Below the pieces are notes generated by a model. That model saw only the letters and a program-made list of their open reading frames with translations, ran no database searches and was not told where the DNA came from. Source: Lysobacter silvisoli (GTDB lineage Bacteria > Pseudomonadota > Gammaproteobacteria > Xanthomonadales > Xanthomonadaceae). Taken from it: a DNA stretch of 64,000 nt. Of the stretch, positions 24,956 to 46,400 are shown piece by piece. Every line of letters starts with the position of its first letter. The stretch's first letter is position 1. A program made the translations under genes and the position numbers. The stretch covers positions 1,116,001-1,180,000 of the forward strand of contig NZ_QTSU01000001.1 of NCBI RefSeq assembly GCF_003382365.1, read 5' to 3'.

Positions 24956-24959
<4 letters not shown>

Positions 24960-29035: not shown

Positions 29036-29082
29036 CCGCGGCCGGCATCGGACGCGACGGCACGGAACAACATTCGGTTCTT

Positions 29083-29090
29083 GGAGAGGG
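29083..29090 (+). promoter_or_regulatory. ribosome binding site deciding the HMGS start
   Basis: GGAGAGGG lies five bases before the ATG at 29096. It favours that start over the in-frame TTG at 29081, which would overlap the site itself. Confidence 0.75.
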
Positions 29091-29095
29091 ACAGC

Positions 29096-30355
29096 ATGAA
29101 AGCAGTGGGTATTGAAGCAATGAACGTGTTCGCCGGCACGGCCTTCCTGGACGTCAGGAAGCTGGCCGAGCATCGCGGACTCGACACCACCCGGTTCGAG
29201 AACCTGCTGATGAAGGAGAAGACGGTTGCGCTGCCGTACGAAGACCCGATCACCTTCGCGGTCAACGCCGCCAAGCCCATCGTCGATGCGTTGAGTCCCG
29301 AGGAACGGGACCGCATCGAGATGGTGATCACCTGTACCGAATCGGCGTTCGATTTCGGCAAATCGATGAGCACGTACTGCCACTCGCTGCTAGGGCTGAA
29401 CCGCAACTGCCGCCTGTTCGAGATCAAGAACGCCTGCTATTCCGGCGCCGCCGGCATCCAGATGGCAGTGAACTTCGTGCTGTCGCAGGCTTCGCCGGGC
29501 GCCAAGGCGCTGGTGCTCGCTACCGACATCTCACGCTTCATGGTCGAGGAGGGCGGCGACGCGCTGACCGCCGACTGGTCGTTCGCCGAGCCCAGCAACG
29601 GTTCCGGCGCGGTGGCCATGCTGATCAGCGACCAGCCGCACATCTTCCAGGTCGACGTCGGCGCCAACGGTTATTACGGCTACGAGGTCATGGACACCTG
29701 CCGGCCCACGGTCGACGGCGACGCCGGCGATTCGGACCTGTCCCTGCTGTCCTATCTGGACTGCTGCGAGAACGCCTTCCTGGAGTACAAGAAGCGCGTC
29801 CCGGACGCGGACTTCGCCGACACCTTCACTTACCTGGCCTATCACTGCCCGTTCGGCGGCATGATCAAGGGCGCGCACCGCAACATGATGCGCAAGATGG
29901 CACGGGCCAAGCCGCAGGAGATCGAGGACGACTTCCAGCGCCGCGTCACCCCGGGCATGATCCACTGCCAGCGCGTGGCCAACATCATGGGCGCGACCAC
30001 GGCGCTTGCGATCGCCAGCACCATCGACCACGGCGATTTCGAAACGCCCAAGCGCATCGGCGCCTTCTCCTACGGCTCCGGCTGCTGCTCCGAGTTCTTC
30101 AGCGGCGTGGTCCGCAAGGAAGGCCAGCAGCGCTTGCGCGCAATGGGCATCCAGGCCCATCTCGACCGGCGCATCGAACTGACGATGGAAGAGTACGACC
30201 GTCTGCTGGTCGGCAGCAACGCCGTGCGGTTCGGCACCCGCAACGTCGTGCTCGATGCCGGCTTCATCTCCCGCGCCCGCAGTGCGATGGACAAGCCGGT
30301 GCTGTTCCTGAAGGAGATCAAGGAGTTCCACCGCGAATACGAGTGGGTGGGCTGA
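29096..30355 (+). CDS. HMG-CoA synthase homologue of the beta-branching cassette
   Basis: 419 residues, the usual size for PksG/MupH/CurD-type HMG synthases. It would condense acetyl from the donor ACP with the beta-keto group of a chain held on an ACPb, giving an HMG-like intermediate. The nucleophilic Cys114 sits in NACYSG and the conserved His250 in YHCPFGG. The start is set by the GGAGAGGG site just upstream. The stop codon overlaps the start of the ECH1 gene. Substrates are most likely the two tandem-ACPb modules at 9000-9605 and 17485-18085. Confidence 0.95.
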   Translation: MKAVGIEAMNVFAGTAFLDVRKLAEHRGLDTTRFENLLMKEKTVALPYEDPITFAVNAAKPIVDALSPEERDRIEMVITCTESAFDFGKSMSTYCHSLLGLNRNCRLFEIKNACYSGAAGIQMAVNFVLSQASPGAKALVLATDISRFMVEEGGDALTADWSFAEPSNGSGAVAMLISDQPHIFQVDVGANGYYGYEVMDTCRPTVDGDAGDSDLSLLSYLDCCENAFLEYKKRVPDADFADTFTYLAYHCPFGGMIKGAHRNMMRKMARAKPQEIEDDFQRRVTPGMIHCQRVANIMGATTALAIASTIDHGDFETPKRIGAFSYGSGCCSEFFSGVVRKEGQQRLRAMGIQAHLDRRIELTMEEYDRLLVGSNAVRFGTRNVVLDAGFISRARSAMDKPVLFLKEIKEFHREYEWVG

Positions 30356-31149
30356 TGGACGGCCGCCCTCTGGACCACGCCGAACTCACCGCGTTGCGCA
30401 TGCGTTTCGACGACGACATCGCGTATCTGCAGATCCACAGGCCCGATGCGAACAACGCGATCAACGACCGCCTGATCGCCGAGTTCGGGTGGGCCCTGGA
30501 TGCGTGCGAGACGCGCGCGAAGATCGTCGTGGTCGAGGGCTTGCCTGAAGTCTTCTGCTTCGGCGCGGATTTCGCCGAGCTGCAGGCCAGTTTCGACGGC
30601 GGCGGCGTGCCGCAGCAGAACCCAGGACCGCTGTACGACGTCTGGCGGCGCCTGGCGACCGGGCCATACGTGTCCATCGCCCATGTCCGCGGCAAGGCCA
30701 ATGCCGGCGGCATCGGCTTCGTCGCGGCCTGCGACATCGTGCTCGCCGACTCGGCGGCGGTGTTCAGTCTCTCCGAGCTGCTGTTCGGACTGATGCCGGC
30801 CTGCGTGCTGCCGTTCCTGGTGCGGAGGATCGGCTTCGCGAGGGCCAACGCCATGACCTTGTCGACTCAGCCGGTTGCGGTACAGGTGGCGCGGGAGTGG
30901 GGGCTGGTCGACGCCTACGAGGACAACAGCGACAACCTGCTGCGCAAGCATCTGCTGCGTCTGCGCAGGCTCAACAAGACCAGCGTTGCGCGCTACAAGC
31001 GCTACATGAGCGCAATCGAAACTTCCATCGGCACGGCCGAGCCACTGGCGCTGGCCGCGAATCGCGACGTGTTCTCCGATGTCGAGAACCTGCAAAGGAT
31101 ATCGCGCTACGTCAAGACCGGCCAGTTTCCGTGGGAGGGAGCCGCGTGA
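30355..31149 (+). CDS. enoyl-CoA hydratase homologue ECH1 (PksH-type)
   Basis: 264 residues from the ATG at 30355, which overlaps the HMGS stop. An in-frame GTG at 30343 lies inside the HMGS gene and is less likely. Crotonase fold is indicated by FCFGADFAEL and GKANAGGIGF, the two oxyanion-hole segments. In beta-branching cassettes this enzyme dehydrates the HMG-like branch to a glutaconyl-like intermediate. Its position directly after HMGS and before ECH2 is the standard cassette order, which supports ECH1 over ECH2. Confidence 0.9.
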   Translation: MDGRPLDHAELTALRMRFDDDIAYLQIHRPDANNAINDRLIAEFGWALDACETRAKIVVVEGLPEVFCFGADFAELQASFDGGGVPQQNPGPLYDVWRRLATGPYVSIAHVRGKANAGGIGFVAACDIVLADSAAVFSLSELLFGLMPACVLPFLVRRIGFARANAMTLSTQPVAVQVAREWGLVDAYEDNSDNLLRKHLLRLRRLNKTSVARYKRYMSAIETSIGTAEPLALAANRDVFSDVENLQRISRYVKTGQFPWEGAA

Positions 31150-31898
31150 GCGCCGAGAAAGTCGTCGACCTGCAGTTCGTCGCCCCGCAGGTCGTTCAGA
31201 TCAGGATGCAGGACCGTACGAGCAAGAACACCTTTTCCGAGGCGCTCACCGAGGGGCTGATGGGCGCGTTCGCGCAGGTCGAACGCCTGCCGGACTGCAA
31301 GGTCGTGGTGCTGACCGGCTACGACAACTACTTCGCCAGCGGCGGCACCCAGGAGCAACTGATGAATCTGTCGGAGGGCCGTGGCGCGTTCACCGACAGG
31401 GCGATCTACGGCTTGCCGTTGCATTGCCCGGTGCCGGTGATCTCCGCGATGCAGGGGCACGGCATCGGCGGCGGATTCGTGCTGGGCATGTTCGCCGACC
31501 TGGTGGTGCTGGGGAGAGAGAACATCTACACCACCAACTTCATGCGTTACGGCTTCACTCCGGGCATGGGCGCGACTTTCATCCTTCCGCAAAAGCTGGG
31601 CTTGGCCCTTGCTACGGAAATGATGCTTTCGGCGAACAACTACCGGGGTGAGGAACTACAGCAGCGCGGAATTCCGTTTCCGGTGGTGCCGCGCGACCGG
31701 GTCCTGACGCATGCGCTGGAGCTGGCGCAGACGCTGGCCGAGAAGCCTCGCGTTTCGCTGGTCGCGTTCAAGGACCATCTGAGCGCGCCGCTGCGGCAGG
31801 CGCTGCCGGCCACCATCGCGCAGGAGGTCGAAATGCATGCCGTGACTTTTGCCCAACCCGAGGTGAGGGCAAAGATCGCCACGCTGTTCGGCGCATGA
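31146..31898 (+). CDS. enoyl-CoA hydratase homologue ECH2 (PksI-type decarboxylase)
   Basis: 250 residues from the GTG at 31146, whose bases overlap the ECH1 stop. The crotonase motifs FASGGTQEQL and MQGHGIGGGF are clear. Members of this family decarboxylate the glutaconyl branch to leave a methyl or exomethylene beta-branch. The protein closely resembles the second ECH domain inside the PKS at about 8195-8920 (shared phrases such as VVLTGYD and GFTPG), so the cluster carries both a free and an embedded ECH2. Confidence 0.9.
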   Translation: MSAEKVVDLQFVAPQVVQIRMQDRTSKNTFSEALTEGLMGAFAQVERLPDCKVVVLTGYDNYFASGGTQEQLMNLSEGRGAFTDRAIYGLPLHCPVPVISAMQGHGIGGGFVLGMFADLVVLGRENIYTTNFMRYGFTPGMGATFILPQKLGLALATEMMLSANNYRGEELQQRGIPFPVVPRDRVLTHALELAQTLAEKPRVSLVAFKDHLSAPLRQALPATIAQEVEMHAVTFAQPEVRAKIATLFGA

Positions 31899-32259: not shown

Positions 32260-33498
32260 ATGCACGCCGCTGAATCCGCTCCCATCGTCGTCTCCGGAAT
32301 CGGCGTTACCGCGTCGATCGGTCAAGGCCGTCGCGCGTTCGCCGATGCGCTGCTGGCCGGCGAGCACCGGTTCGCGGCGATGCGGCGCCCCGGACGGCAA
32401 AAGCCGGCCTCGGACGGTGACGTCGCCCCGGCATTCATCGGCGCGGAGATCGCCGATCTGCGCATGCCAGATGCCGTCGCCGCTGCGAAGCTGCGCAACT
32501 TGTCCTGGTCCGCTCAGGTAGCGCTCGCGACCCTGCAAGAAGCATGGGATGACGCCGAGCTCGATGATGTCGATCCACGCCGGATCGGCCTGATCGTCGG
32601 CGGGTCGAACTTCCAGCAGCGCGAACTGGCGCTCACTCAGGCCAAGTATCAGCACCAGCCCGAGTTCCTGCGTCCGACCCACGCGATGACGTTCATGGAC
32701 ACCGATCTGTGCGGCGTGTGCAGCGAAACCTTCGGCATCCGCGGCCTGGCCATCACCGTCGGTGGCGCGTCCGCAAGCGGGCAGCTGGCAGCGATACAGG
32801 CGATCGAAGCCGTGCGTTCCGGCCAGGTCGATGTCTGCATAGCGCTGGGCGCACTGATGGATCTTTCGTACTTCGAATGCCAGGCGTTCCGTTCCCTGGG
32901 CGCGATGGGATCGGACCGCTACGCCCACCAGCCCGAGTTGGCCTGCAGGCCGTTCGACCGCGACCGCGATGGCTTCATCTTCGGCGAAGCCTGCGGAGCG
33001 ATCGTCGTGCGCCGCGCCGCCGACGCGACGCGCACGCCTTATGCCGAACTCAAGGGCTGGGCGATGGCCTGGGACGCCAACCGCAACCCCAATCCCTCGC
33101 TCGAAGGCGAAACCGCCGTGATTCGTGGCGCATTGGCGAGGGCAGGGCTCTCCGCGGATGCGATCGACTATGTCAATCCGCACGGCACCGCATCGGTGGT
33201 CGGCGACGAGACCGAGCTGGCCGCGCTGCGCGCCTGTGGCCTGGATCGCGCCCACCTCAATTCGACCAAATCGCTGGTGGGGCATGGGCTTAGCGCGGCC
33301 GGCATGGTCGAACTGATCGCCGTGATGCTGCAGATGCAGGCGGGGCGCCTGCATCCGTCGCGCAATCTGGACAGCCCCATCGATGCGGGGTTCCGCTGGG
33401 TGGGGGCGACCGCCATCGATCACGTCGTCGAGCGCGCGCTCAACATGAGCATGGGCTTCGGCGGCATCAACACGGCGATCTGCCTGCAGCGCAGCTGA
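32260..33498 (+). CDS. free-standing decarboxylase ketosynthase (PksF-type)
   Basis: 412 residues with thiolase/KS fold. The active-site Cys is replaced by Ser171 (GGASASG), while both histidines remain (NPHGTAS and SLVGHGLS). This Cys-to-Ser change is the hallmark of PksF-type enzymes, which decarboxylate malonyl-ACP to acetyl-ACP but cannot condense. The start at 32260 places it 49 bases after the donor ACP. With the preceding four genes it completes the beta-branching cassette. Confidence 0.92.
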   Translation: MHAAESAPIVVSGIGVTASIGQGRRAFADALLAGEHRFAAMRRPGRQKPASDGDVAPAFIGAEIADLRMPDAVAAAKLRNLSWSAQVALATLQEAWDDAELDDVDPRRIGLIVGGSNFQQRELALTQAKYQHQPEFLRPTHAMTFMDTDLCGVCSETFGIRGLAITVGGASASGQLAAIQAIEAVRSGQVDVCIALGALMDLSYFECQAFRSLGAMGSDRYAHQPELACRPFDRDRDGFIFGEACGAIVVRRAADATRTPYAELKGWAMAWDANRNPNPSLEGETAVIRGALARAGLSADAIDYVNPHGTASVVGDETELAALRACGLDRAHLNSTKSLVGHGLSAAGMVELIAVMLQMQAGRLHPSRNLDSPIDAGFRWVGATAIDHVVERALNMSMGFGGINTAICLQRS

Positions 33499-33540: not shown

Positions 33541-34752
33541 ATGAAGACCTACATGTTTCCCGGGCAGGGATCGCAGGCGCGCGGCATGGGCGGGGACCTG
33601 TTCGATGCGTTTCCGGAGCTGACCGCGAAGGCCGATGAGGTGCTCGGATACTCCATCAAGGAACTGTGTCTGGAGGATCCCCGACGCGAACTGGGCAAGA
33701 CCCAGTTCACCCAGCCGGCGTTGTATGTGGTCAACGCGCTGTCCTATTACAAGCGGATCCAGGACACGGGCGAGATCCCCGATTACCTCGCCGGCCACAG
33801 CCTGGGCGAGTTCAACGCGCTGCTTGCGGCCGAGTGCTTCGACTTCGAGACCGGACTGAAGCTGGTCAAGAAGCGTGGCGAGTTGATGAGCGAAGCCGAT
33901 CAGGGTGCGATGGCCGCCATCGTCAACGCCTCCCGCGACCAGATCGAAGCTTTGCTCAGGGAAAAAGGCCTGGCAAACGTCGATATCGCCAACTACAACA
34001 CGCCGCTGCAGATCGTCATCTCCGGCCCCACCGCCGACATCGCCGCTTGCCAGGACATCTTCCAGTTCGACCGGGTGATGTACGTTCCGCTCAATACCAG
34101 CGGCGCGTTCCATTCGCGTCTGATGCTCCCTGCAAAGCGGAAGTTCGAGGCCTTTCTAAAGAAGCGCAAGTTCTCGAAGCCGAAGATTCCGGTGATCGCG
34201 AACCTGACGGCGCAGCCGTACCCGGACGCGGCCGTGGTCGAGTACCTGTCGAAGCAGATCTCCAGCACGGTGCTGTGGAGCGACACGATCCACCATCTCA
34301 TGTCGCTGTCGGATGCGATGGAGTTCGTCGAGATCGGCCACGGCGACGTGCTCGCGAAGATGATCCTGAAGATCAAGCAGATCGCCGCGAAATCTGCCGC
34401 GGAGCAGGCGCCGCCCCCGGCACCGGTGGAGAAGAAATCGGAAACTCCGAACCCGGCGGCTGTCGTTTCGGCGGCACCGAGCGCCATCGCTGCGACCGGC
34501 AGCGCACAGACCGAATCGAATAGCGGCCAGCGCGACGATCGCTTCGCGCTCGCGGAGCAGAAGGTCGCCGCGTGGAACAGTCGCCACCCCGTCGGCACCG
34601 GTGTGAAGTCGACGGTAGCCGCGCACGGGGCGCTGATCACGCGCACCCCGGCCGTGGTGCTGTTCGGCCATCGCGCGGCGGTCTACATGGAGGGCTACAA
34701 CGGCTACTTCGACCTCGACGAGCTTTCGCTCGACCAAACTTCGGCCGCCTAA
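33541..34752 (+). CDS. trans-acting malonyl-CoA acyltransferase with C-terminal extension
   Basis: 403 residues. The first 290 or so are a complete AT: PGQGSQ near the N-terminus, nucleophile Ser87 in GHSLGEF, the KKRGELM arginine, and His191 in GAFHS. It supplies malonyl to the AT-less modules. A Pro/Ala-rich linker (about 290-345) leads to a compact C-terminal segment (about 350-395, ending GYNGYFDLDEL) that I recall from other trans-ATs but cannot assign a function. It lacks the FMN-dependent ER domain that many trans-AT clusters fuse to an AT. The next gene starts six bases after the stop. Confidence 0.93.
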   Translation: MKTYMFPGQGSQARGMGGDLFDAFPELTAKADEVLGYSIKELCLEDPRRELGKTQFTQPALYVVNALSYYKRIQDTGEIPDYLAGHSLGEFNALLAAECFDFETGLKLVKKRGELMSEADQGAMAAIVNASRDQIEALLREKGLANVDIANYNTPLQIVISGPTADIAACQDIFQFDRVMYVPLNTSGAFHSRLMLPAKRKFEAFLKKRKFSKPKIPVIANLTAQPYPDAAVVEYLSKQISSTVLWSDTIHHLMSLSDAMEFVEIGHGDVLAKMILKIKQIAAKSAAEQAPPPAPVEKKSETPNPAAVVSAAPSAIAATGSAQTESNSGQRDDRFALAEQKVAAWNSRHPVGTGVKSTVAAHGALITRTPAVVLFGHRAAVYMEGYNGYFDLDELSLDQTSAA

Positions 34753-34758
34753 CCGCTC

Positions 34759-35793
34759 ATGCGCCTTCCTCTCGTCTTCATGTTCTCCGGGCAGGGCTCG
34801 CAGTACCACCAGATGGGACGCGAGCTGTACGACCGGCATCCCAGGTTCCGCCTGTGGATGGATCACTGCGACGAAATCGCCGAGCCGCTGATCGGCGGCT
34901 CGCTGTGCGACTTGCTGTACCGCAAAGGCGACAAAGGCCAGCCGTTCGACCGTCTGCTGCACACCAGTCCGGCGCTGGTGGCATTCGAATTCAGCCTGGC
35001 GCGGGTGTTGATCGAAGAGGGCGCCCGGCCGGACTACCTGCTCGGCTACAGTCTGGGCGAACTCACCGCCGCGATCATCGGCGGAGCATTGACCATCGAG
35101 CAGGGCATCGGCTTCGCTGCCGATTACGCCCGGCTGGTCGAAGCCGAAAGTCCGCCGGCGACCATGCTGGCGGTGGTCGGCGTGTCCGACGTCGAAATGC
35201 GCTATGCCGGCCTGCTCGCAGATTGCTGGGTGACCGCGCGCAACTTCGAGCGGCATCTGGTCGTGACCGGACCGGTCGATGCGATCGCGCCGCTGCGCGC
35301 GGCGCTGACCGGTGACGGCGTGGTCCATCAAGTGCTGGCGGTCAAGTACGGATTCCATACCGGCATGCATGCGGCGCTCGAAGCGCCGTTCAAGGCGCTG
35401 GCGGAGAAAGTGGACTTCGCGCCGCTGCGCACGCCGATGGTGTCGTGTCTGGACGGAAGCGTGCACGACGGCGAAAGCGATCAGAGGGAATGGTCGCAGC
35501 GTCTGTGGGCCACGTTCCGCCGGCCGGTGGAGTTCGGCGCCACGGTACGTGGCCTGCTCGATCGGGGCGATTTCCACTTCCTGGACGTAGGCCCCAGCGG
35601 CACGCTTGCGACCTTCGTCAAGTACCTGCTGCCGGTCGGGAGCGCGTCGACATTCGGCGACGTGATCAATAATTTCGGCAGGGACGAGCGCACCTATCGC
35701 GACGCGCTGCAGCGGCTGGGCTTGAGCGACGTCTCCAGCACCGCGTACCGGCAGGCTAGCGCCGCGCATTCCTCGGGGAGGGCGTCGGCTTGA
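34759..35793 (+). CDS. second trans-acyltransferase, probably acyl hydrolase (proofreading)
   Basis: 344 residues, AT fold with SGQGSQ, Ser98 in GYSLGEL and His200 in GFHTG. It differs from the preceding AT at both motifs (GYS rather than GHS, FHT rather than FHS). Clusters of this kind often pair a malonyl AT with an acyl hydrolase (PedC-type) that clears stalled or decarboxylated chains from ACPs. I favour that role, but selectivity for another extender unit is possible. Its stop overlaps the TTG start of the thioesterase. Confidence 0.85.
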   Translation: MRLPLVFMFSGQGSQYHQMGRELYDRHPRFRLWMDHCDEIAEPLIGGSLCDLLYRKGDKGQPFDRLLHTSPALVAFEFSLARVLIEEGARPDYLLGYSLGELTAAIIGGALTIEQGIGFAADYARLVEAESPPATMLAVVGVSDVEMRYAGLLADCWVTARNFERHLVVTGPVDAIAPLRAALTGDGVVHQVLAVKYGFHTGMHAALEAPFKALAEKVDFAPLRTPMVSCLDGSVHDGESDQREWSQRLWATFRRPVEFGATVRGLLDRGDFHFLDVGPSGTLATFVKYLLPVGSASTFGDVINNFGRDERTYRDALQRLGLSDVSSTAYRQASAAHSSGRASA

Positions 35794-36215: not shown

Positions 36216-37204
36216 AGGCCCTCGTCTACCACGAGTACGGATCTCCCGATGTTCTGCAGCTGCGGGACGTGGAGATGCCCGTACCGCGCTCGAACGAGCT
36301 GCGCATCCGCATGCGCGCCGCGTCGCTCAACCCGGCCGATCTGTATCTGATGCGCGGAAGCCCCTACATGCTGCGGTTTAAGATCGGCCTGAAACGACCG
36401 AAGAACAACGGTGTCGGCCTGGATTTCGCCGGGGTCGTCGACGCCGTCGGCGACGGGGTTACCTCACTGCGCGTAGGCGACGAAGTCTTCGGCCAGATTT
36501 CCGACTTTTCCACCGGACGCACCCGCGCCCTGGCCGAATACCTGTGCGTGGGCGCGGCGCTCGCAGTGAAGAAGCCGCAAGGCATCGGTTTCGCCGAAAT
36601 CGCCTCGATTCCGCTGGCGGGAAGCACCGCGCTGTTCGCGGTCCGCGATTACGGCCAGGTGACCTCCGGGCAGCATGTGCTGATCAACGGCGCGGGCGGC
36701 GGGGTGGGCGTGCATGCGGTGCAGCTTGCGAAGCATTTCGGCGCCACGGTCACGGCCGTGTGCAGCGAGGCCAAGCGATCGCTGATGCAGGAGATCGGCG
36801 CCGACCACGTTATCGACTACCGAAAGCAGGATTTCACCGCCGGTTCCACCCGCTACGACACGATCATCGACACGGTCAGCAGCCAATCCCTGCGTCGCTG
36901 CAGGCAGGTACTGGTGCCTCAGGGCCGGTTTGTTTGGGTGGGGGGAACCGGCAAGACCCATTGGTTTGGCCCGCTGCGCCTGGCGCTGAACGTACTGGCG
37001 ATGCCGCTGTTCGACCGCAGGCATCGCTGGATTCTGGCGTCGAAGGCGCCCACCGCCGAGGACCTGGCGACGCTCGCCGGCTTGCTCGAACAGGGGGCAT
37101 TCCGCCCAGTCATCGATCGGCGCTATCCGCTTGCGGATGCCGCCGATGCCATCCGTCATCTGGAGAAAGGCCATGCGTGCGGAAAGATCGTCGTCGAGAT
37201 CTGA
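36212..37204 (+). CDS. MDR-superfamily NAD(P)H-dependent oxidoreductase, candidate trans-enoylreductase
   Basis: 330 residues from the ATG at 36212 (overlapping the thioesterase stop). It is a medium-chain dehydrogenase/reductase of the quinone-oxidoreductase branch: GroES-like N-terminal half, then the nucleotide motif NGAGGGVGVHAVQLAKHFGA. No structural-zinc Cys cluster is visible. Cis-AT PKS enoylreductases belong to the same superfamily. As the window encodes no in-line ER and no FMN-type trans-ER, this is the best candidate for any enoyl reduction, though reduction of another intermediate is equally possible. It ends the block of trans-acting genes. Confidence 0.85.
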   Translation: MKALVYHEYGSPDVLQLRDVEMPVPRSNELRIRMRAASLNPADLYLMRGSPYMLRFKIGLKRPKNNGVGLDFAGVVDAVGDGVTSLRVGDEVFGQISDFSTGRTRALAEYLCVGAALAVKKPQGIGFAEIASIPLAGSTALFAVRDYGQVTSGQHVLINGAGGGVGVHAVQLAKHFGATVTAVCSEAKRSLMQEIGADHVIDYRKQDFTAGSTRYDTIIDTVSSQSLRRCRQVLVPQGRFVWVGGTGKTHWFGPLRLALNVLAMPLFDRRHRWILASKAPTAEDLATLAGLLEQGAFRPVIDRRYPLADAADAIRHLEKGHACGKIVVEI

Positions 37205-37320
37205 CCTGAATCCGGGAGCCATCGCGGACGTGAACGGAGAGGCTGCCAAGCCACGTTTCGCGATGCGCGTTGATTTACAAGAAAGCAGCGAAATTCCAGG
37301 GTTTTTTTTGCGATTTGAGT

Positions 37321-37349
37321 TGTTACCTGGCGGTCGAATGACTATGATC
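37321..37349 (+). promoter_or_regulatory. candidate sigma70-type promoter upstream of the DUF2156-lyase PKS
   Basis: TTGTTA (37321-37326) and TATGAT (37344-37349) are separated by 17 bases. They lie in the only clearly AT-enriched stretch of the window, 57 bases before the ATG at 37406. This is the longest intergenic gap (201 bases), so the second half of the cluster may have its own transcript. Assigned by eye only. Confidence 0.5.
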
Positions 37350-37357
37350 CGAGGTGG

Positions 37358-37377
37358 CGCCAAAGTGACTTGGCGCT
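37358..37377. promoter_or_regulatory. inverted repeat just downstream of the candidate promoter
   Basis: GCGCCAA and TTGGCGC form a perfect 7-bp stem around a 6-base loop, nine bases after the putative -10 box. It could be an operator or a 5' leader hairpin. The following leader contains AAGGAA (37391-37396) as the ribosome site for 37406. Confidence 0.45.
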
Positions 37378-37405
37378 GGGGACGGAACGCAAGGAATGCT
37401 GACCA

Positions 37406-40400
37406 ATGATGGACCATGACACCCTGCAGGAGCGCACAGAGAACTATCTGAAATCGCTGATCTGCGATTCGGCGGATACGGCGCTGGTCTTCGACGCGGA
37501 GACGCCATTCGGCGAGCTCGGCGTCAATTCTTTCCTGGTCCTGAAGATACTTAAGCGTCTGGAGCAGGACTTCGGCACGTTGCCGAAGACGCTGCTGTTC
37601 GAGAACTTCAACGTCCGGGATCTGGCCCGGTATTTCGTCAAATCGCATACGGACGTATTGATCGGCAAGTTCCCGGACGCTTTGCCGTCCGCGTCGTCGC
37701 AACAGGCGGAGCCGCGCCCATCGATTCCCACGGACGAGGTGCCCGCTCCCGCGCCAGCCGCGCCTGCGCGGGCGACGACGAGCGCGGCGAGCGAAACACG
37801 ACTGCCGGCAATGGTCGCGCTCAGGCACTTGCATCGCTACCCGCAACTGGAACGGCGCCGGCACGAGATTTTCGATCGTTACAAAAACGAATCTTCGGTG
37901 TCGCGCGGCACCGCGATGATCGCGCCGCTGCTGTTCTTCGGTGACGCTCAGCACGGCTATTTCAACTGCGGCAAAGGCAGGGACATCCTGCTGGCTTACG
38001 GCTATACCGGGCCGGAAGATCAGTTCCACCCGCTCGCCGAACAGTTGTATCGGTACTGCGACGCGCATGGCCTGCAGCTCAATCTGTTCGTCGAAGATAG
38101 GCTTCCCGAGCTGTGCGGCAAGCGCTTTTCCGCGACGCCATTCGGCGTGATGCAGCGCGTGACCGACCTGGCGTCCTTCACCCTGGAAGGCCAGAAAATG
38201 CGGCGTTTGCGCTATCTGGTGTCCAAGTTCGCCAATGCCGGTGCCTGCCGTACCCAAGAGTACATCTGCGGCAGCGATGCCAAGACCGCCGAGGCGGTCG
38301 CCGCGATCATCGACCGCTGGTGCGCGACTCGCACGATGGTCAATCCGCTGATCCACATCGTCAAGGCCGAGATCCTCGCGGGCACGCTGGACCGCGAGCA
38401 CCGGCTGTTCCTGACCTACGTCGACGATGTCCTGCAGAACGCGATCCTGGTGTCGCCGATGGCGGCCGGCGCCGGCTATCTGATGGATCTGGAGTTCTAC
38501 GGCCCGGACATGCCGCTGGGCGGGCTGGAATTCGCCATCGTCAACATCATCCAGACGCTGCGCGACGAGGGCTGCAGCGTGTTCAGCCTCGGCGGTACTT
38601 ACGGCTGCAAGCTCGCCGACTCGCCCGACGCGGACCCGGCGATCGAGAACATCCTCGAGGATCTGCGCCGCCAGGAGATCTTCAACGACGCGGGCAACCT
38701 TCAGTTCAAGAACAAATTCCGCCCCGAAAGCAAGGACATCTTCCTGTGCCGGGCCGTGGATGCGGGCAGGGCGGACAACGTTCTCGACATCATTCTGATG
38801 ATCGCAGACCCGGCGATATCGGACGGCGACGAGCCGCCGGTCGACGAGGTCGTGCCTGCGCCGGCGTGCGCCACGGAAGCGAATGCGGCGCCGGCCTCGA
38901 CCGCCGCCACGACGGCCACCGGCGACATCGCATCCAGCCCGCGCTGGAAGGCGCTGGAAGCGGCCGGTTTCAACCCGCTGAACATTCCCGCCGCGCAAGT
39001 CGACTTCGATCTGAAGACCGACTCCTGGGCGCAGTTGCGCCTGACCGCCATCGACAAGCAAATGGCCACCCTGTTCGCGCAGATCCAGCGGCCGATCGAC
39101 GTGAACGCCGGCCTGCGCCGGGTATTTCCGTTCAAGCACTTCACCCTGGCCGAGTCCGGGCGCGCGGCCGAAGCGCTGTTCTGCCAGGCCTGGGAGACCC
39201 GGGGTAGGGTGCCGCAGAACATCCTGTTCCCCAGCACGATTTTCAATCAGATCGACAACGGCTACTCCCCGGTAGAAATGCCCGTCGCCCATGCCTTCGA
39301 TCTGCAGTCCGACGCGCCTTTCAAAGGCGACCTCGATCTGTCCGCGCTGCGCGCCGAGATCGCAAGCCAAGGCGCAGAGATCGCTTATGTCTGCATCGAG
39401 CTGACCGATAACGCCACGGGCGGCGGCGCGGTGTCGCTGCCCCACCTGAAGCAGGTAAAGACCCTGCTGCAGGAGCACCGGCTGCCGCTGGTTCTCGATG
39501 CCACGCGTGTGCTCGAGAACGCACTGACCGTCATCGACCACGATCCCGAATGGCGCGGCGCCTCGCTGTGGCAGGTGGCGGAGGCCTTGCTGTCGCAGGC
39601 CGACGCGATCGTGGTCAGCCTGGCCAAGGATTTCTGCGTCGACAAGGGCGGGCTGATCGCGACCAACGATCAGGCGCTGCACGACCGGCTGCAAGCCTTG
39701 CAGCAGCGCGGCGGCAAGGCCCTGGACGTCACCGAGAAGAAGTGCATCGCGGCATCGCTGCAGAACCGCGGCTACATCGAGACCCATGTCCGCCGCCGCG
39801 TCGAGGCCGTGAAGGCACTGGGATCGCGTCTTGCGGAACGGCAATTGCCTGTCGTCCGTCCGGCGTCCGCCCATTGCGTGTTGATCGACGTCAAGCGTAT
39901 TCCCGAGTTTCGCGATCTGGCCGCACCGGTGGCATCGTTCGTGGCCTGGCTCTACCTGGCTACCGGCATCCGCGCCGGCGCGCACAGCGTCGGCATGCAG
40001 CACGATACCTCGCTCAATCAACTCGTCAGGCTGGCCATTCCCGTGGGCCTAAAAGCCGACGAGGTCAATCGGCTGGGCGACCGGCTGGTGGAAGCGTTCG
40101 CCGACATCGTCAATATCCCCGACCTCAGCGCGAGCGCAGGGGTGGGCGATCTCAACGTTCGGCTCACGCTGGATGGACTGTTGTCGCCGCGCAGCGTCGT
40201 ATCGGTGCCGGTGGGGGATGCGCAGGGCGCTGCTACGGTTGCAGCCGTGCACGCTTCGGCTACGCACGCCGCGCAGCCGCGTGCCGCTACCGCCGCGGCA
40301 GCCGGGCCGCAGGCCTCCGATATGTCGGTGCCGGCCGATATGGAAATCGCCATCGTCGGTATGGCCGCGCGCTTTCCGAAGGCCAGGAACGCCGAGGAGC

Positions 40401-43400
40401 TCTGGGAAAATCTCACCCAGGGGCGCGACTGCATCGATGAGATTCCGCAGTCGCGGTTCGAGCGCCGGCGCAACCGCGATGTGTTGGGCCGGTACCGCGG
40501 CGGCTTTCTCGACGACCTGGACCGCTTCGACTCGCTGTTCTTCAATATATCGCCGCGCGAAGCCGAGACCTTGGACCCGCAGGAGCGCCTGTTCCTGGAG
40601 GTCGCTTGGGAAGCTCTGGAAGACGCCGGCTACTACCCCGAGGCGTTCCAGAGCGAAGAGCTGGGCGCACGCCGGATCGGCGTGTACGTGGGCGCGGTGT
40701 GGGCGATGTACCAGATGGTCGGCGCCGAGGAGCGCCTGGCCGGCAACGCTGTGGTCGCCAACTCGTTCCTGTGGAGCGTCGCCAACCGCGCTTCCTACTT
40801 CATGAATTTCACCGGTCCCAGCATCGCGGTTGACACCGCGTGCTCGGCCAGCCTGACCGCGATCCATCTCGCCTGCGATGCCATCCGGCGCGGCGAATGC
40901 GCCGCCGCCCTGGTCGGCGGCGTCAACCTGGATGTGCACCAGTCCAAACAGGAAATCACCGTCGCTGGCGGTCTGCTGTCGGATGAAGGCCTATGTCGCG
41001 CCTTCGGCCGCGGCGCCAGCGGCTACGTGCCGGGCGAGGGCGTCGGCGCGCTGCTGCTCAAGCCGCTCGCCCAGGCGCGGCGCGACCGCGACAACATCTA
41101 TGCGGTGATCAAGAGCTCGGCGATCAGCCACGGCGGGCGCAACAGCGGCTATGCGGTACCGAACTCGAAGGCGCAGTGCGACGTCGTCAGCATGGCGCTG
41201 CAGAAGGCCAACGTGGACGCGCGCAGCATCGGTTACATCGAAGCCCACGGCACCGGCACCGAGCTGGGCGATCCCATCGAGATCGCCGGCCTCAACCAGG
41301 CGTTCGAAAAGGACCGGGTCGCGCTGCAGACCTGCCCGATCGGTTCGATCAAGACCAACATCGGCCACCTGGAAGCGGCCGCGGGCATCGCGGGCGTGTG
41401 CAAGACCATCCTGCAGATGCGTCACCGCACCCTGGTGCCGTCGCTGCATTCGGCCCAACTCAATGAATTCATCGATTTCGCGCATTCGCCGTTCGTAGTC
41501 CAGCAGACGCTGACGCCGTGGCAGCCCAAGGAAATCGATGGCGTGCTGCAACCGCTGCGTGCGGGCATCAGCTCTTTCGGCGCTGGCGGTTCCAACGCGC
41601 ATGTGATTCTCGAAGCGGTTTCGGACACCGCATTGTCCACCGGCGTTCCGGCGGAACGCGGGCTGCGCATTTTTCCGCTGTCGGCGCGTAACGAAGAGCA
41701 GCTGCGCCAGGTCGCGATGCGGCTGCAGTCCTTCGTCGAGAAGCGCCGCGACGGCGATGCCCCTCCCAGCCTCGATGAGATCGCCTTCACCCTGCAGCTG
41801 GGCCGCAAGTCCTTCGATCACCGCGTCGCCATTCTGGCGGACAGCCACGAGCGCCTGATCGGCAGGCTGCAGTCCTTCCTGGCAGGCACGCGCGACGAGC
41901 ACATCCTGATCGGCCACGTGAAGAATGCGGAAGGCATCACCAAGATGCTCAACCGCAAGGAAAAGGACGCCTTCGTCGATCTGCTGGCGAAATCGCGCGA
42001 TCCGATGAAGCTGGCGCAGCTGTGGATCGACGGCCTGGTGTCCGAATGGCAGGGCATGCAGATCGGTGAGCAGGGCAGGCGAATTTCGCTGCCGACGTAT
42101 CCGTTCGCCGACAAGCGTCATTGGCTCGAACCCATCCAAGGCAGCGCGATCGGGCCGGCGTCGGCCGGGCAGGTGGCCGGCCTGCATCCGCTGATCGACA
42201 GCAACGAATCCACGTTCGAGCGCCAGGTGTTCCGCAAGGTATTCACCGACCGCGAGTTCTTCATCTACGACCATCTGGTGTCCGACATCCCCACGCTTCC
42301 GGGCGTGGCTTATCTCGACCTGGCGCGCAAGGCCGGCGAGATCGCCGCCGGGCGCAAGGTCCGCAGAATCAAGAACATCCTCTGGGTCAGCCCGTTGACG
42401 GTGCGCAACTCGGTTGCCAACGAGGTGCTGGTCGAACTGAAGCCCGCTGGCGACTCGGTCGTGTTCGAGGTCTTCAGCGAACGCGAGGATGGAAGGAAGC
42501 AGCTCTATTGCCAAGGGAAGCTCTTCTATGCGACGGCCCAGGACGATGCGGCGGAAGACGAGCACATCGACCTGTCCGCGATCCGCAGTCGCTGCGACAA
42601 GGTCATGGACGCCGACCGTGCCTACCCGCTGTTCAAGACCCTCGGCCTGGGCCTGGGCCCCAGCTTTCAGGCGCTCACCGAGGTCCACCGCAATCCCCAG
42701 GCCGCCTTCGAGGTGCTGGGCGCCCTGAAGATGCCGGCGCTGGACGGCACGCGCTTCGATGAGTTCGTGCTGCATCCCTCGCTGGTCGACTCCTCATTCC
42801 AGGCGGCCATGGCCGCGCGGCTCGCCGACGCCGGCGGCGAGATGTTCGTGCCGTATTCGCTGGGCGAAGTGGAGATCCTGCATCCGCTTACCCAGGTCTG
42901 CTACAGCTACGTGACCGAGGCCAGGGACGAGAAGAAGTCGTCCAACGTCTCGAAGATGAACGTGCTCATCGTCGACGAGCAGGGCAGGGTGCTGGTCAGG
43001 GTGCGCGATTCGGTCGGTGTGCCGTTGCTCGACGTGCACGAAAAGCCCGGCGCCGCGTCTGGTGCGCCGTCAACGGGCGGCGACGATGCTGCGTTCCCTA
43101 CCTTGTATTACCGCCCCGAGTGGCAGCCCGCATCGCTCCCGGCTCCCGCAAGCGAGCCCTCGCGGCAGACCATCGTGTTGTTCGCACCCGATGAGCGCAG
43201 TCACGAGGCTTACCGGGCCGCGTTGGCCGCGTCAGGAGGCGACCCCGACAAGCTGATCGCGGTGCTGCCCGGCGACGGCTTCGCCCGTATCGACCCCCGT
43301 CGATATCGTATCGATGCCGGCAAGCGCGAGGACTTCGAGACGTTGCTTTCGGCGTTGCGCCAGCAATCCGATGCCGCCCTGAACCTGTGCTTCGCCTGGT

Positions 43401-46400
43401 CGGCGCTGCCCGACACCGAGGCCGACGGGCTGTCGGCCGAAGACCGCACGATGCGGGCGCTCGATCGCGGCGTGTACGCTTTCCTGTATCTGACCCAGGC
43501 CATCATCGCGCAGAAATGCGAGCCCGATGTCCGCCTGCAGTACCTATACTTCAGCACGCCGCTCGAAACGCAGCCGCACAATGAGGCGATCCAGGGCTTT
43601 GCGACCATTCTGCGCGCCGAGTGCCCTAAGCTCGCATGCAAGGTCGTTGAAATCGTCGGCACCGACTCGGCCGATGCCGCCGGCTTCGATACGACGTCGG
43701 TGGCCGCGATCGCGGCCGAGTTCTGCGACGATACCAAGGCCTTGGCGGTGCGCTACCGCGAAGGCGTGCGTTACCTGCGCCGTATCCACGGCTGCGAAGA
43801 ACCCGTCGCTCCGGCCCGGGACGCAGCCCCGATCCGTCATGGCGGCATCTACCTCATCACCGGCGGCGCCGGCGGCTTGGGCCTGATCTTCGCCGAGCAT
43901 CTGGCGAGGCAGTGCCAGGCGCGGTTGGTGCTGAGCGGCCGCGGCGCGCTCAAGCCGGAAGCCGAAGCGGCGCTCGACTCCATGCGCGCGGCCGGTGCCG
44001 AAGTGGTGTACGTGCCGGCCGACGTGTCCAAGCGCGAGGATGTCGAAAGACTGGTCCAAGTGTGCAAGGACCGCTATGGCGGGCTGCACGGCATCATCCA
44101 CAGCGCCGGCGTGCTGCGCGATGCGTACTTGCGCAACAAGACGCGCGACGAAATGGCGGCCGTGTTCGCGCCCAAGATCCGAGGCTCGGTGCTGCTGGAC
44201 GACGCGACGCGCGACGAACCGCTGGACTTCTTCGTGATGTTCTCGTCGCTGGCGGCGCTGGCAGGCAACGCCGGCCAGAGCGATTACTCGTACGCGAACC
44301 ATTTCATGGATGCGTTCGCCGCGCAGCGCAATGCGCGCGCTCGTGCCGGGCAGCGGCACGGCAAGGCGCTCAGCCTCAACTGGTCGATCTGGGCCGAGGG
44401 CGGCATGCGGCTGGACGAGCAAACCGCGCTGTTCTTCGAGCGCAATCTCGGCATCCGGCCGCTGCGGCGCGAGGTCGGTATCCAGGCGCTGATGCTGGGC
44501 CTGCATGGCGATCTGCCGCAGCTCGCGGTGCTGCAGGGCGTGAAGGACAAGGTCGAACGCGCCTGGGGCATCGGCGCGGTCGACGCGCCCAAGGCCGCCG
44601 AGGCGGCGTCTGCGGCGGCCCCGACGGTGGTTGGGGGCGAGGACGGCGATCTGGCGATCCAGGTCCAGGGCGCGCTGTCGCAGATCGTCATGGACTTCCT
44701 GAAGATCGACGCCGATGATGTCGACCTCGACACCATCCTGCTGGACCTGGGTTTCGATTCGATCGGGCTCACCTCGTTCAGCAACATGGTCAACGACAAG
44801 TACGGCCTGGACATCACGCCGGTCTTGTTCTTCGAGTATCCGAACATCCGCGAGATCGCCAAGCATCTCGCCCAGGACCACCGCGAGAACATGCTTCGCG
44901 TGCATGCGCAGGCGGGTACGCTGTCGGCCGCGGCCAACGCCGGCTCGCCCAGCCCAGCGCTACCGGTCCGGGATCAGCCTGTGTTCGCGCCCAAGAACGC
45001 GCTTGCCGTGCCGGATGCGACGCCGCCCGCGGGCACGGGGCGCTTCTCCCCCGGCCGCCGCTTCATCGAGCGCCCGATCGCCATCGTCGGCATGAGCGGC
45101 GTGATGCCGCAGGCGGACACGCTGGACGAGTACTGGGACAAGCTGAGCAAGGCCGAGAACAACATGGTCACGCTTGTTCCGCCGGACCGCTGGGACTGGG
45201 AGGCGTACTACGGCGATCCGCTGGCGGAGAAGAACAAGACGCTGTCGAAGTGGGGCGGCTTCATGCGCGAGGTCGACAAGTTCGACCCGCTGTTCTGGGG
45301 CATCTCGCCGCGCGAAGCGGAGATGATGGATCCGCAGCAGCGGATTTTCCTGGAGAGCGTCTGGGGTGCGATCGAGGACGCCGGCCACCGGGTCTCCGAC
45401 CTGGCCGGCACCAAGACCGGTCTGTTCGTCGGCGCGGCCACGCGCGACTACATCGACCTGATGGCGACGAACCAGGCCGAGCTCGACGGCTATTCCGCTT
45501 CGGGCACTTCGCACGCCATCCTCGTCAACCGCGTGTCGTTCCTGCTCAATCTTCACGGGCCCAGCGCGCCGCTGGACACCGCGTGCTCGAGTTCGCTGGT
45601 GGCCCTGCACCGCGCGATCGAGTCGATCCACACCGGCAGCTGCGACATGGCGATCGTCGGCGGGGTGCAGGTCATGCTCACCCCCGCCGGTCACATCTCG
45701 TTCGGCGCGGCCGGCATGCTGGCCGACGACGGCAAATGCAAGACCTTCGATTCGCGCGCGAACGGCTACGTCCGCGGCGAGGGCTCCGGCGCGATCCTGA
45801 TCAAGCCGCTGGAGAACGCCATCGCCGACGGCGACCATATCTATGCGGTCGTCAAATCCACCGCCGAGAACCACGGCGGCAAAGTGACGATGCTGACCGC
45901 GCCGAACCCGAACGCGCAGGCCGATCTGCTGGTCGAAGCCTACGAAAAGGCCGAGATCGATCCCCGCAGCGTCGGCTATCTCGAGTGTCACGGCACCGGC
46001 ACCAGCCTGGGCGATCCGATCGAGATCCAGGCCATGAAGAAGGCGTTCTCCGAGCTGTACCGCAAGCATCAGATCCCGCCGGCCGAGAAGCCGCACATCG
46101 GGCTCACCTCGGCCAAGACCAACATCGGCCATCTGGAAACCGCAGCCGGTATCGCCGGCATCCTGAAGGTGCTGCTGTCCATCAAGCACAAGCAGATTCC
46201 CGCGCTGCTGCACTTCGAGAAGCTCAATCCCTACATCAATCTCGACACCACCCCCTTCTATCCGGTGGAAAAGACCAAGGAATGGGAGCCGGCGGTCGAC
46301 GGGCAAGGCCGGGTCCACCCGCGCCGCGCCGGCATCAGCTCCTTCGGCTTCGGCGGCGCCAACGTACACGTAGTGCTGGAGGAGTACCTAGCGGACGAAG

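Follow-up and report, generated by a model that had tools for sequence, protein, structure and literature searches.

The soil bacterium Lysobacter silvisoli carries a trans-AT PKS cluster in which one PKS protein, here called protein E, begins with an ACP-DUF2156-PLP lyase unit. This unit is almost certainly a DUF-SH didomain of the leinamycin type, and it would very probably install sulfur into the growing polyketide. The explanation of the whole that we favour, and consider rather likely, is that this Gram-negative trans-AT PKS contains a sulfur-installing unit of the leinamycin type whose DUF is fed by Cys-tRNA. The DUF-SH architecture is already known, and the proposed tRNA link of the DUF is the part that looks new.

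Protein E and its neighbourhood

The features below were located in the window, the whole stretch of 64,000 nucleotides that was analysed.

24956-29035, + strand: protein D, the PKS preceding protein E
27320..28579, + strand: KS ending protein D (profile); candidate split-module partner of the N-terminal ACP of protein E
29081..30355, + strand: HCS, HMG-CoA-synthase-like, for beta-branching (profile)
30343..31898, + strand: pair of ECH genes in the beta-branching cassette (mechanical ORFs 30343-31149 and 30897-31898; true starts uncertain)
32260..33498, + strand: stand-alone KS of the cassette (Pfam, NCBIfam)
33541..34752, + strand: trans-acting AT (FabD profile above cut-off)
34759..35793, + strand: second gene with an AT fold (AT or acyl hydrolase)
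37406..47905, + strand: PKS protein E (ATG, 3499 aa), with the ACP-DUF-SH at its start
37412..37654, + strand: N-terminal ACP (profile match; ACP match to DisA)
37868..38761, + strand: DUF (LPG_synthase_C / DUF2156), double-GNAT fold (Pfam, profile, model)
38945..40108, + strand: SH domain of the PLP-dependent (thio)cysteine lyase type, with Lys741 (Pfam, profile, structure comparison)
40346..41617, + strand: KS, which would extend the thiolated chain (profile)
42176..44881, + strand: DH, KR and ACP of the following module (Pfam, profile)
45077..47725, + strand: KS and DH-like domain closing protein E (Pfam, profile)

After the ACP-DUF2156-PLP lyase unit, protein E continues with KS-DH-KR-ACP-KS; by domain profiles, one ACP precedes the DUF-SH, a KS follows it and a TE is absent. 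The protein has no cis AT, and stand-alone AT genes lie at 33541 and 34759. In Pfam, LPG_synthase_C (the former DUF2156) covers residues 194-448 (E 3.5e-18; 66.1 bits, cut-off 27.5) and Beta_elim_lyase residues 568-847 (E 5.3e-27). The motif SLAKDF begins at residue 738, so that the lysine of the SH domain is Lys741, and DATR and VRLAIP are found at 698 and 874. A sequence-only reading of this DNA had placed an ACP, a DUF2156 and a PLP lyase in a single PKS polypeptide; ORF 37406-47905 and the Pfam and profile matches bear this out, and the PLP residues are intact where that reading had located them.

The antisense frame of the DUF-SH stretch has one stop, and a long minus-strand ORF (36464..40021) overlaps the stretch; long antisense ORFs are frequent in GC-rich DNA. 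Because both halves of the didomain recur in 14 of the 297 genomes of the host's family, its own included, and DUF-SH matches were obtained at 122 places in the genome collection (the best 80 of the 122 being retained), DUF-SH is not a chance pattern. The tryptophanase-like half alone was matched in 10 more of the 297 genomes.

Relationship to the leinamycin-type DUF-SH

The DUF-SH of protein E aligned to the PKSs of three LnmK-bearing clusters (L017, L018 and L019) with 39.8-42.6% identity over 89-95% of the query; the PKS of a further locus (L020) resembles these in alignment but is unannotated. A further PKS with which it aligned comes from Streptomyces sp. CB01635 (L090), a strain named as an LNM producer in PMC8479088.

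The predicted structure of the lyase half matched 9cen, the solved guangnanmycin thiocysteine lyase, with E 2.3e-39 and TM 0.88 (query length), and is closer to 9cen than to any tyrosine phenol-lyase (TPL). The sequence scores of this half lie below the curated NCBIfam cut-offs for tyrosine phenol-lyase/tryptophanase (181.8/285, 149.7/720.7 and 96/825.8 bits). When SH was aligned to TPL, a Phe stood opposite Tyr71 and a 3-residue gap opposite the stretch with Arg381 (TPL numbering). Loss of these two residues agrees with PMC3870968.

The leinamycin DUF-SH parallel, drawn earlier from the letters of the DNA, has now become one of homology, through the PKSs of the LnmK-bearing clusters, the CB01635 PKS and the guangnanmycin SH structure. 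The relation of the leinamycin DUF to DUF2156, previously left open, is settled as homology, LnmJ and a Lysobacter protein both being listed with DUF2156-PLP by Milano 2013 (PMC3870968). The idea of a new kind of module is not supported: Table 2 of that 2013 paper gives F8TUA6 (Lysobacter sp. ATCC 53042) and A9ECY5 (Kordia algicida) as CP-DUF2156-PLP3-KS-KR-CP-KS, an order like that of protein E, and 109 DUF-SH clusters were surveyed, with further groups, by Meng 2021 (PMC8479088).

Protein E resembles the leinamycin family (LnmJ, GnmT, WsmR) in having an ACP followed by DUF-SH in the same order, a trans-AT PKS, full-length homology, the SH fold of 9cen and an HCS cassette, whereas it differs in its single ACP, its lack of a TE and its N-terminal unit with modules after it. 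The leinamycin family proper has a terminal KS-ACP-ACP-DUF-SH-TE module, which protein E does not possess.

Placement of the unit bears on a further explanation, a loading module in which the DUF loads cysteine on the ACP and the lyase strips the sulfur, giving a product without sulfur from the unit. In 50 of 84 loci the unit stands at the N-terminus, as a loading module would, and in Aquimarina L028 the 10 kb before it hold NusG, PRPP synthetase and L25 genes and no PKS domain. We regard this explanation as improbable, however, since the units that are C-terminal or internal (33/84) work on a grown chain, the lyase is nearest a thiocysteine lyase, and a KS-ending protein stands before the unit in the gene order of the window. 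In these counts loci of the same contig or species (L067/L075, L089/L091) were kept separate and L100, with a split frame, was put in the C-terminal class.

Fold of the DUF and proposed chemistry

From gene order, the terminal KS of protein D possibly pairs with the N-terminal ACP of protein E; proteins F (KS-DH-KR) and A (MT-ACP and onwards) likewise resemble a split pair. We infer the following chemistry for a sulfur-installing unit. An acyl chain on the N-terminal ACP, most likely passed on by the KS at the end of the preceding protein, would be beta-processed by the HCS cassette, and the DUF would couple a cysteine unit, by way of its sulfur, with the beta-carbon. Cleavage of the C-S bond of this cysteine by the PLP-dependent SH would then set pyruvate and ammonia free, so that a thiol or hydropersulfide stays on the chain, which would be elongated by the KS that follows. 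The DUF would act as an aminoacyl-tRNA-dependent transferase with Cys-tRNA(Cys) as donor, the cysteine being carried perhaps as a persulfide.

The predicted DUF structure (pLDDT 94.8) shows a double-GNAT fold, which together with the family profile places it in LPG_synthase_C. Among the best 50 of 834 Foldseek matches, ranks 1-17 were LPG synthases/MprF (E 5.5e-18 to 2.7e-11) and ranks 18-26 were FemX and the streptothricin enzymes Sba18/Sbb17 (about 1e-10), so that every enzyme in ranks 1-26 is known to depend on aminoacyl-tRNA or bears a title that says so. Ranks 27-28 have no known function, and ordinary tandem acetyltransferases appear only from rank 29 (2e-8). The double-GNAT fold is thus shared with A-PGS, L-PGS, MprF, FemX and Sba18/Sbb17 (E 5.5e-18 to about 6e-10), as is, by alignment, a K-x-K-F stretch near the end; unlike the LPG synthases, FemX and Sba18/Sbb17, the DUF lies within a PKS and its acceptor is presumably an ACP-bound chain. 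The proposed use of tRNA is like that of TglB, for which Cys-tRNA is a building block, while the LanB dehydratase NisB adds glutamate from Glu-tRNA onto Ser/Thr side chains; both belong to other protein families and act on other substrates (PMC9016710).

PMC8479088 poses the catalytic role of the leinamycin-family DUF as a future question, and PMC7618002 calls its conjugate addition 'proposed'. In the published model the DUF uses free L-thiocysteine (or cysteine), which it attaches to an enoyl chain bound to the ACP, and SH cleaves the adduct; the MprF-like fold would then be mere ancestry and any tRNA-Cys nearby would have another cause. This model, to which we give somewhat less than an even chance, draws on the published proposal of free L-thiocysteine as source and on SH kinetics, three SH domains favouring the thiocysteine adduct 50- to 106-fold (Meng 2021, PMC8479088; PMC7618002). 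Against it, the enzymes closest to the DUF in fold depend on aminoacyl-tRNA. That the DUF draws its cysteine from tRNA, as its fold and gene linkage suggest, is to our minds evenly balanced. The same holds for the wider proposal that the leinamycin DUF is a cysteinyl-tRNA-dependent transferase, to which tRNA-Cys would bring the polyketide sulfur, possibly in the form of persulfidated Cys-tRNA produced by CysRS.

A tRNA link would make the role of the DUF directly testable. If real, it would connect assembly-line polyketide synthesis with aminoacyl-tRNA chemistry, the translation machinery supplying a domain of a PKS, and would explain the presence of an MprF-like domain in a PKS. A cluster-borne tRNA-Cys would then serve as a genomic flag by which sulfur polyketides could be recognised in Pseudomonadota, Bacteroidota and Acidobacteriota.

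tRNA-Cys and CysRS genes linked to DUF-SH clusters

In the L. silvisoli genome a second tRNA-Cys gene lies 7.6 kb past the last PKS gene. One tRNA-Cys is present on the DUF-SH contig in this genome and in Pseudomarimonas, Steroidobacter gossypii, S. agaridevorans, Peristeroidobacter, Caballeronia, Paraburkholderia and a Terriglobia MAG; Aquimarina and an Angelobacter MAG have two each and F. imtechensis four, tandem arrays comprising two to four genes. These clusters span three phyla, Pseudomonadota, Bacteroidota and Acidobacteriota. If the DUF uses Cys-tRNA(Cys), as proposed, this would account for the extra tRNA-Cys of some clusters and the second CysRS of a few; some of the cluster tRNA-Cys genes are perhaps of a non-translational type.

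By a uniform pattern search, 9 of 44 genomes have a tRNA-Cys no more than 100 kb from DUF-SH, against 1.85 expected (P 6.4e-5), an excess that is weaker when the nine are collapsed to five lineages (P about 0.04). Matches per genome were tallied by hand, a four-gene array counting as one place, and some second matches (G240, G061, G310) look like chance. The 44-genome table leaves out G301-G304 and G319, which equal G115, G190, G100, G061 and G263, and G329-G333, which had no tRNA-Cys scan.

No linked tRNA-Cys was found in 32 of the 44 DUF-SH genomes, which speaks for the free-thiocysteine model; the number becomes 33 if the array of F. marina, found on a contig of its own of 3.7 kb, is not taken as linked. 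Among those without one are the cluster's nearest relatives, namely G190, G241 and G137 (each read over 160 kb) and G013 (120 kb), and the Kordia algicida genome (L050, G310). The four scanned genomes with the leinamycin-type layout (G305, G306, G326, G327) likewise had none, in contrast to the linkage seen in some relatives of the unit in the window. Against the free-thiocysteine model, six clusters in three phyla have a tRNA-Cys about 1.1 kb or less from trans-AT or AH genes. The remark in the sequence-only reading that the amino acid might come from aminoacyl-tRNA has gained genomic support from tRNA-Cys and CysRS linkage, beside the DUF fold, with the linkage confined to a minority of clusters.

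HCS clusters without DUF-SH, taken as controls, had a tRNA-Cys in 0 of 14 cases within 19-41 kb, a comparison that is not like for like, since the controls could miss a tRNA-Cys more than 10-20 kb from HCS and DUF-SH was judged to 100 kb. Four control loci, from three genomes that hold no DUF-SH, covered 19-20 kb; ten plasmid loci covered 41 kb, had no DUF-SH within it and lay outside the 4 plasmid records that match DUF-SH over its full length. One further control (L183, G474) was removed for its distant DUF-SH, leaving the 14; no tRNA-Cys lies within its 20 kb.

The extra tRNA-Cys genes might instead serve genomic islands that bear the clusters as attachment sites, or travel in such islands as passengers. 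Homology between L. silvisoli and Pseudomarimonas breaks off precisely at the 3' end of the tRNA, and 1.15 kb beyond the tRNA-Cys there is a 21-base remnant of a tRNA, as at an island attachment site; 2 of 13 Lysobacter genomes without DUF-SH have a second tRNA-Cys-like match 350 bases from the first. We nevertheless consider an island origin unlikely: complete second copies and tandem arrays are unlike attachment leftovers, the tRNA-Cys of Aquimarina, Terriglobia and Angelobacter sits between cluster genes on the same strand, and that of S. gossypii is flanked by PKS domains on both sides.

In the literature, searched mostly at title and abstract level, no tie of tRNA-Cys or CysRS to DUF-SH/DUF2156 PKSs was found, and the text of PMC7930024 mentions neither tRNA nor cysteine, Lysobacter, Fulvivirga or Aquimarina.

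Of 41 DUF-SH genomes, 4 have a second CysRS that is linked to the cluster. This second copy could confer self-protection, together with the tRNA-Cys, if a thiol-bearing product inhibits CysRS, as with target copies in other antibiotic clusters; the thiomarinol plasmid, one of the controls, has ileS inside its cluster. The copies retain the usual CysRS motifs, and that of Caballeronia comes directly after an efflux operon (OEP-HlyD-AcrB) in gene order, both in keeping with such a role. Self-protection nonetheless appears slightly less likely still than an island origin, since so few genomes have the second copy, tRNA-Cys arrays without CysRS are left unexplained, and L. silvisoli has a single CysRS, 0.6 Mb from the cluster. 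Were the Cys-tRNA-fed DUF confirmed, CysRS would be a possible target where a cluster holds a second copy.

In S. gossypii the CysRS lies beside the DUF-SH unit with a phosphoesterase gene. A housekeeping cysS-lpxH neighbourhood was rejected here, as the phosphoesterase recurs beside DUF-SH at 8 further loci (one a fragment, one in the L. silvisoli genome) and three more DUF-SH clusters have a second CysRS on the DUF-SH contig. Second CysRS genes of two Massilia genomes, Aliikangiella and Ardenticatenaceae G306 were discarded as linked copies, being on other contigs. Of the actinobacterial second CysRS matches, which may be mycothiol ligase, none is near DUF-SH by contig number; that of G333 is on the same contig, about 0.5 Mb off.

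The DUF-SH didomain of protein E

Protein E, a PKS of 3499 aa, is encoded by the ORF at 37406-47905 on the plus strand. Pfam and home-made profiles gave the domain order ACP, LPG_synthase_C (formerly DUF2156), Beta_elim_lyase, KS, DH, KR, ACP, KS and a DH-like end. The sequence-only reading had noticed an ACP, a DUF2156 domain and a PLP lyase in one polypeptide, which the domain profiles and the motif positions in the translation confirmed (Lys741 within SLAKDF, DATR at 698, VRLAIP at 874); judged from these motifs, the PLP residues of the SH domain are intact. LPG_synthase_C occurs at one place in this genome (4.54 Mb, 7 contigs), namely in protein E.

Among the best 80 of 122 didomain relatives in the genome collection, the closest named ones for the ACP-DUF-SH unit were in Lysobacter sp. 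ISL-50 (89%) and Pseudomarimonas arenosa (85%), and a PKS of Streptomyces sp. CB01635, an LNM producer according to the available text of PMC8479088, was also included. A tblastn search with the didomain matched three annotated actinobacterial PKSs, which have LnmK-family, ACP and HMGS genes alongside, as well as a fourth that is unannotated, all with 40-43% identity over 89-95%. The AlphaFold2 model of SH (pLDDT 94.6) matched the guangnanmycin thiocysteine lyase 9cen (Foldseek E 2.3e-39, TM 0.88) ahead of tyrosine phenol-lyase (TPL; E 2.2e-35), and the sequence ranking agreed (1.6e-65 vs 2.6e-41). These comparisons of sequence and model identify the unit as a leinamycin-type DUF-SH didomain. 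In the alignment the TPL stretch holding Arg381 faces a gap in SH and Tyr71 faces Phe (TPL numbering); by these marks SH is not a tyrosine or indole lyase. The consulted portion of PMC3870968 describes embedded domains without Arg381 and a Lysobacter model in which Arg takes the place of Tyr.

The idea that the module is of a new kind was not upheld, because such modules are already described in the portions available of PMC3870968, PMC8479088 and PMC7618002. Table 2 of PMC3870968 enters LnmJ with DUF2156-PLP3 and lists the architecture of protein E, in print for Lysobacter since 2013, in Lysobacter sp. ATCC 53042 F8TUA6 and Kordia algicida A9ECY5. PMC8479088 gives 109 DUF-SH clusters with three families beyond the leinamycin type, and the annotated non-leinamycin modules of PMC7618002 have one ACP and no TE. 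Across 84 parsed DUF-SH loci the unit was C-terminal in 26 (HCS, the HMG-CoA-synthase-like protein, being in view for 25 of them), N-terminal before a KS in 50, as in protein E, internal in 7 and otherwise placed in 1.

The DUF model was built from 67 sequences (pLDDT 94.8, pTM 0.91) and compared with the PDB using Foldseek. Among the 50 listed of 834 matches, ranks 1-17 were LPG synthases and MprF (E 5.5e-18 to 2.7e-11), ranks 18-26 FemX and streptothricin aminoacyl-tRNA-dependent peptide synthases (about 1e-10), and ranks 27-28 a protein of unknown function; ordinary tandem acetyltransferases first appeared at rank 29 (2e-8). By sequence, all ten PDB matches to E 1 were of LPG-synthase or MprF type, one titled merely hypothetical conserved protein. 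The modelled fold on its own does not prove tRNA use by the DUF.

CysRS and tRNA-Cys genes at DUF-SH clusters

Among the neighbour genes of DUF-SH, a cysteinyl-tRNA synthetase (CysRS) gene was found at L024:5879-7387, directly ahead of the Steroidobacter gossypii unit, and counts of CysRS and tRNA-Cys were therefore undertaken. A second full-length CysRS was present on the DUF-SH contig in 4 of 41 DUF-SH genomes (this genome, 14 and 26 further):

S. gossypii: 1.8 kb ahead of the PKS ORF
Caballeronia udeis: about 6 kb off, downstream of an efflux operon
S. agaridevorans and Peristeroidobacter agariperforans: about 81 kb off, yet adjoining the HCS-ECH-ECH-KS cassette

The second copies retain the HIGH-like, KMSKS and Zn-ligand motifs usual for CysRS. 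For these four clusters, self-protection of the producer by the second CysRS is a serious rival to a part in sulfur delivery. The Lysobacter silvisoli genome has a single CysRS, about 0.6 Mb from DUF-SH. In S. agaridevorans, the stretch from the HCS cassette to the second CysRS contains a NusG-type gene and a LuxR/LuxI pair (L116:7961-10688), which suggests quorum control of the cluster.

tRNA-Cys genes at DUF-SH clusters (first nine rows by ARAGORN)
S. agaridevorans: gca; few bases from CysRS gene end, convergent
Peristeroidobacter: gca; about 0.1 kb from CysRS gene end, convergent
Aquimarina (L168): two in tandem; about 0.15 kb past AH domain
Fulvivirga imtechensis (L159): four in tandem; about 0.5 kb past AT domain
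Caballeronia (L162): one; about 1.1 kb from AH
Paraburkholderia humisilvae (L165): one; about 0.6 kb from AH
Terriglobia MAG (L031): one; at most 0.1 kb past AT gene
Angelobacter MAG (L037): two; at most 0.1 kb past AT gene
S. gossypii (L115): one; past P450, ahead of further PKS domains
F. marina: three; on a 3.7-kb contig with ACP and stand-alone KS
L. silvisoli, second copy: contig C1:1185563-1185636; 47 bases past last stop, 7.6 kb past last PKS gene

The second L. silvisoli copy (Infernal, 61.2 bits vs threshold 29) follows genes for an MMPL protein, a GMC oxidoreductase, a P450 and a small biotin-carrier-like protein, and Pseudomarimonas has the identical gene order around its tRNA-Cys. 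The other copy, at 870178 of the same contig, stands with tRNA-Gly and tRNA-Leu. The 139-aa ORF directly ahead of the second copy (L125:8096-8515), by eye biotin carboxyl carrier protein-like, is common to Pseudomarimonas (75%) and, more weakly, G190 (43%). A 21-base copy of tRNA-Cys positions 22-42 lies 1.15 kb downstream (C1:1186784-1186804) and is possibly an old attachment site; the second tRNA-Cys stands where the end of an island could be.

The three acidobacterial tRNA-Cys lack the D-loop GG, carry TGCAATT as their T loop and score under the Rfam tRNA threshold, yet form a cloverleaf in the minimum-energy fold. The staphylococcal cell-wall tRNA-Gly offer a parallel. By eye, the remaining cluster tRNA-Cys are ordinary. 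At two Fulvivirga loci (L025:7875-8027, L054:1606-1759) a pair of neighbouring tRNA genes, whose anticodon loops are odd (cttc and ctgg by ARAGORN), lies 1.6 kb and about 4 kb, respectively, ahead of the ACP-DUF-SH gene; both genes of the L025 pair pass the Rfam tRNA model.

With one uniform pattern, tRNA-Cys was found within 100 kb on the DUF-SH contig in 9 of 44 DUF-SH genomes vs 1.85 expected (P 6.4e-5). Kinship reduces the nine to about five lineages (P for five or more, 0.04). On the other side, the tRNA-Cys lie much closer to cluster genes than 100 kb, and arrays do not enter the P value. Beyond the nine, L031 and L037 were found by ARAGORN only, and F. marina is a twelfth case, on a separate contig. 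HCS clusters without DUF-SH gave 0 of 14 within 19-41 kb; these controls reach less far than the 100 kb allowed for DUF-SH genomes. Thirteen Lysobacter genomes without DUF-SH had one pattern match in 10, two in 2 (about 350 bases apart) and none in 1. A first ARAGORN look at 84 loci (L017-L100), not targeted at tRNA-Cys, gave 12 tRNA genes in 9 loci: Cys 3 (two loci), Val 1, Leu 3 (Aquimarina), Met 1 and ambiguous 4 (two Fulvivirga loci). Linked tRNA-Cys was not found in 32 of 44 DUF-SH genomes (F. marina left aside), which speaks against tRNA delivery, as does the possible island end at the second L. silvisoli copy. Among the 32 are the closest cluster relatives (G190, G241, G137, G013), covered over 120-160 kb, and four scanned genomes of leinamycin type.

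A proposed role for Cys-tRNA

We propose that, starting from an enoyl-ACP or beta-branched enoyl-ACP, the DUF would carry cysteine over from Cys-tRNA, its sulfur being joined to the beta-carbon as the tRNA departs. Cleavage by SH would then give a thiol or persulfide, pyruvate and ammonia, and the next KS would continue. The thiol of the tRNA-bound cysteine might undergo conjugate addition in the DUF step. Glutamylation by LanB is followed by an elimination step. Alternatively, cysteinylation might turn a beta-hydroxyl into a leaving group, in analogy to LanB enzymes, which glutamylate in a tRNA-dependent manner (PMC9016710, available text). Clusters without their own tRNA-Cys would draw on the pool of the cell. 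If CysRS charges cysteine persulfide, such charging could accommodate the preference for thiocysteine measured in PMC8479088. No tie of tRNA-Cys or CysRS to DUF-SH PKSs was found in a literature search of mostly titles and abstract openings; the linkage offers a concrete test of leinamycin DUF function.

The gene cluster around protein E

The cluster extends from about 8.2 kb ahead of the window to a TE-bearing gene ending at 61928, with tailoring genes past that. PKS A begins MT-ACP, and PKS D ends in a C-terminal KS (27320-28579), followed by the HCS cassette (HCS, two ECH, stand-alone KS), two AT-fold genes, an ER-like gene and protein E; downstream are an AMP ligase, SDR, KS-DH-KR, class III aminotransferase and ACP-KS-ACP-TE. 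Taken in gene order, D would supply the KS and E the ACP of a single split module that lacks KR and DH and adjoins the beta-branching cassette. This reading, in which protein order is taken from gene order, matches the leinamycin sulfur module in its logic (KS-ACP-ACP-DUF-SH-TE, with HMGS; PMC7618002, available text).

In two PKS modules (window 2404-12003 and the 8.2 kb ahead of the window) tandem ACPs go together with in-line ECH domains, two or three per module; the assembly line therefore probably performs beta-branching at other points as well. No Pfam or NCBIfam match was obtained for the 552-aa ORF at 54753-56411, which lies after the KS-DH-KR protein and before the aminotransferase. 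Near DUF-SH PKS loci of the N-terminal type there is a recurrent calcineurin-like phosphoesterase (about 253 aa; the pairs shown are 52-80% identical):

L. silvisoli: L102:9369-10127, before PKS A
Other loci: L024:7390-8148, L031:4179, L042 (fragment), L044:3686, L046:2158, L058:1802, L059:4813, L065:3623
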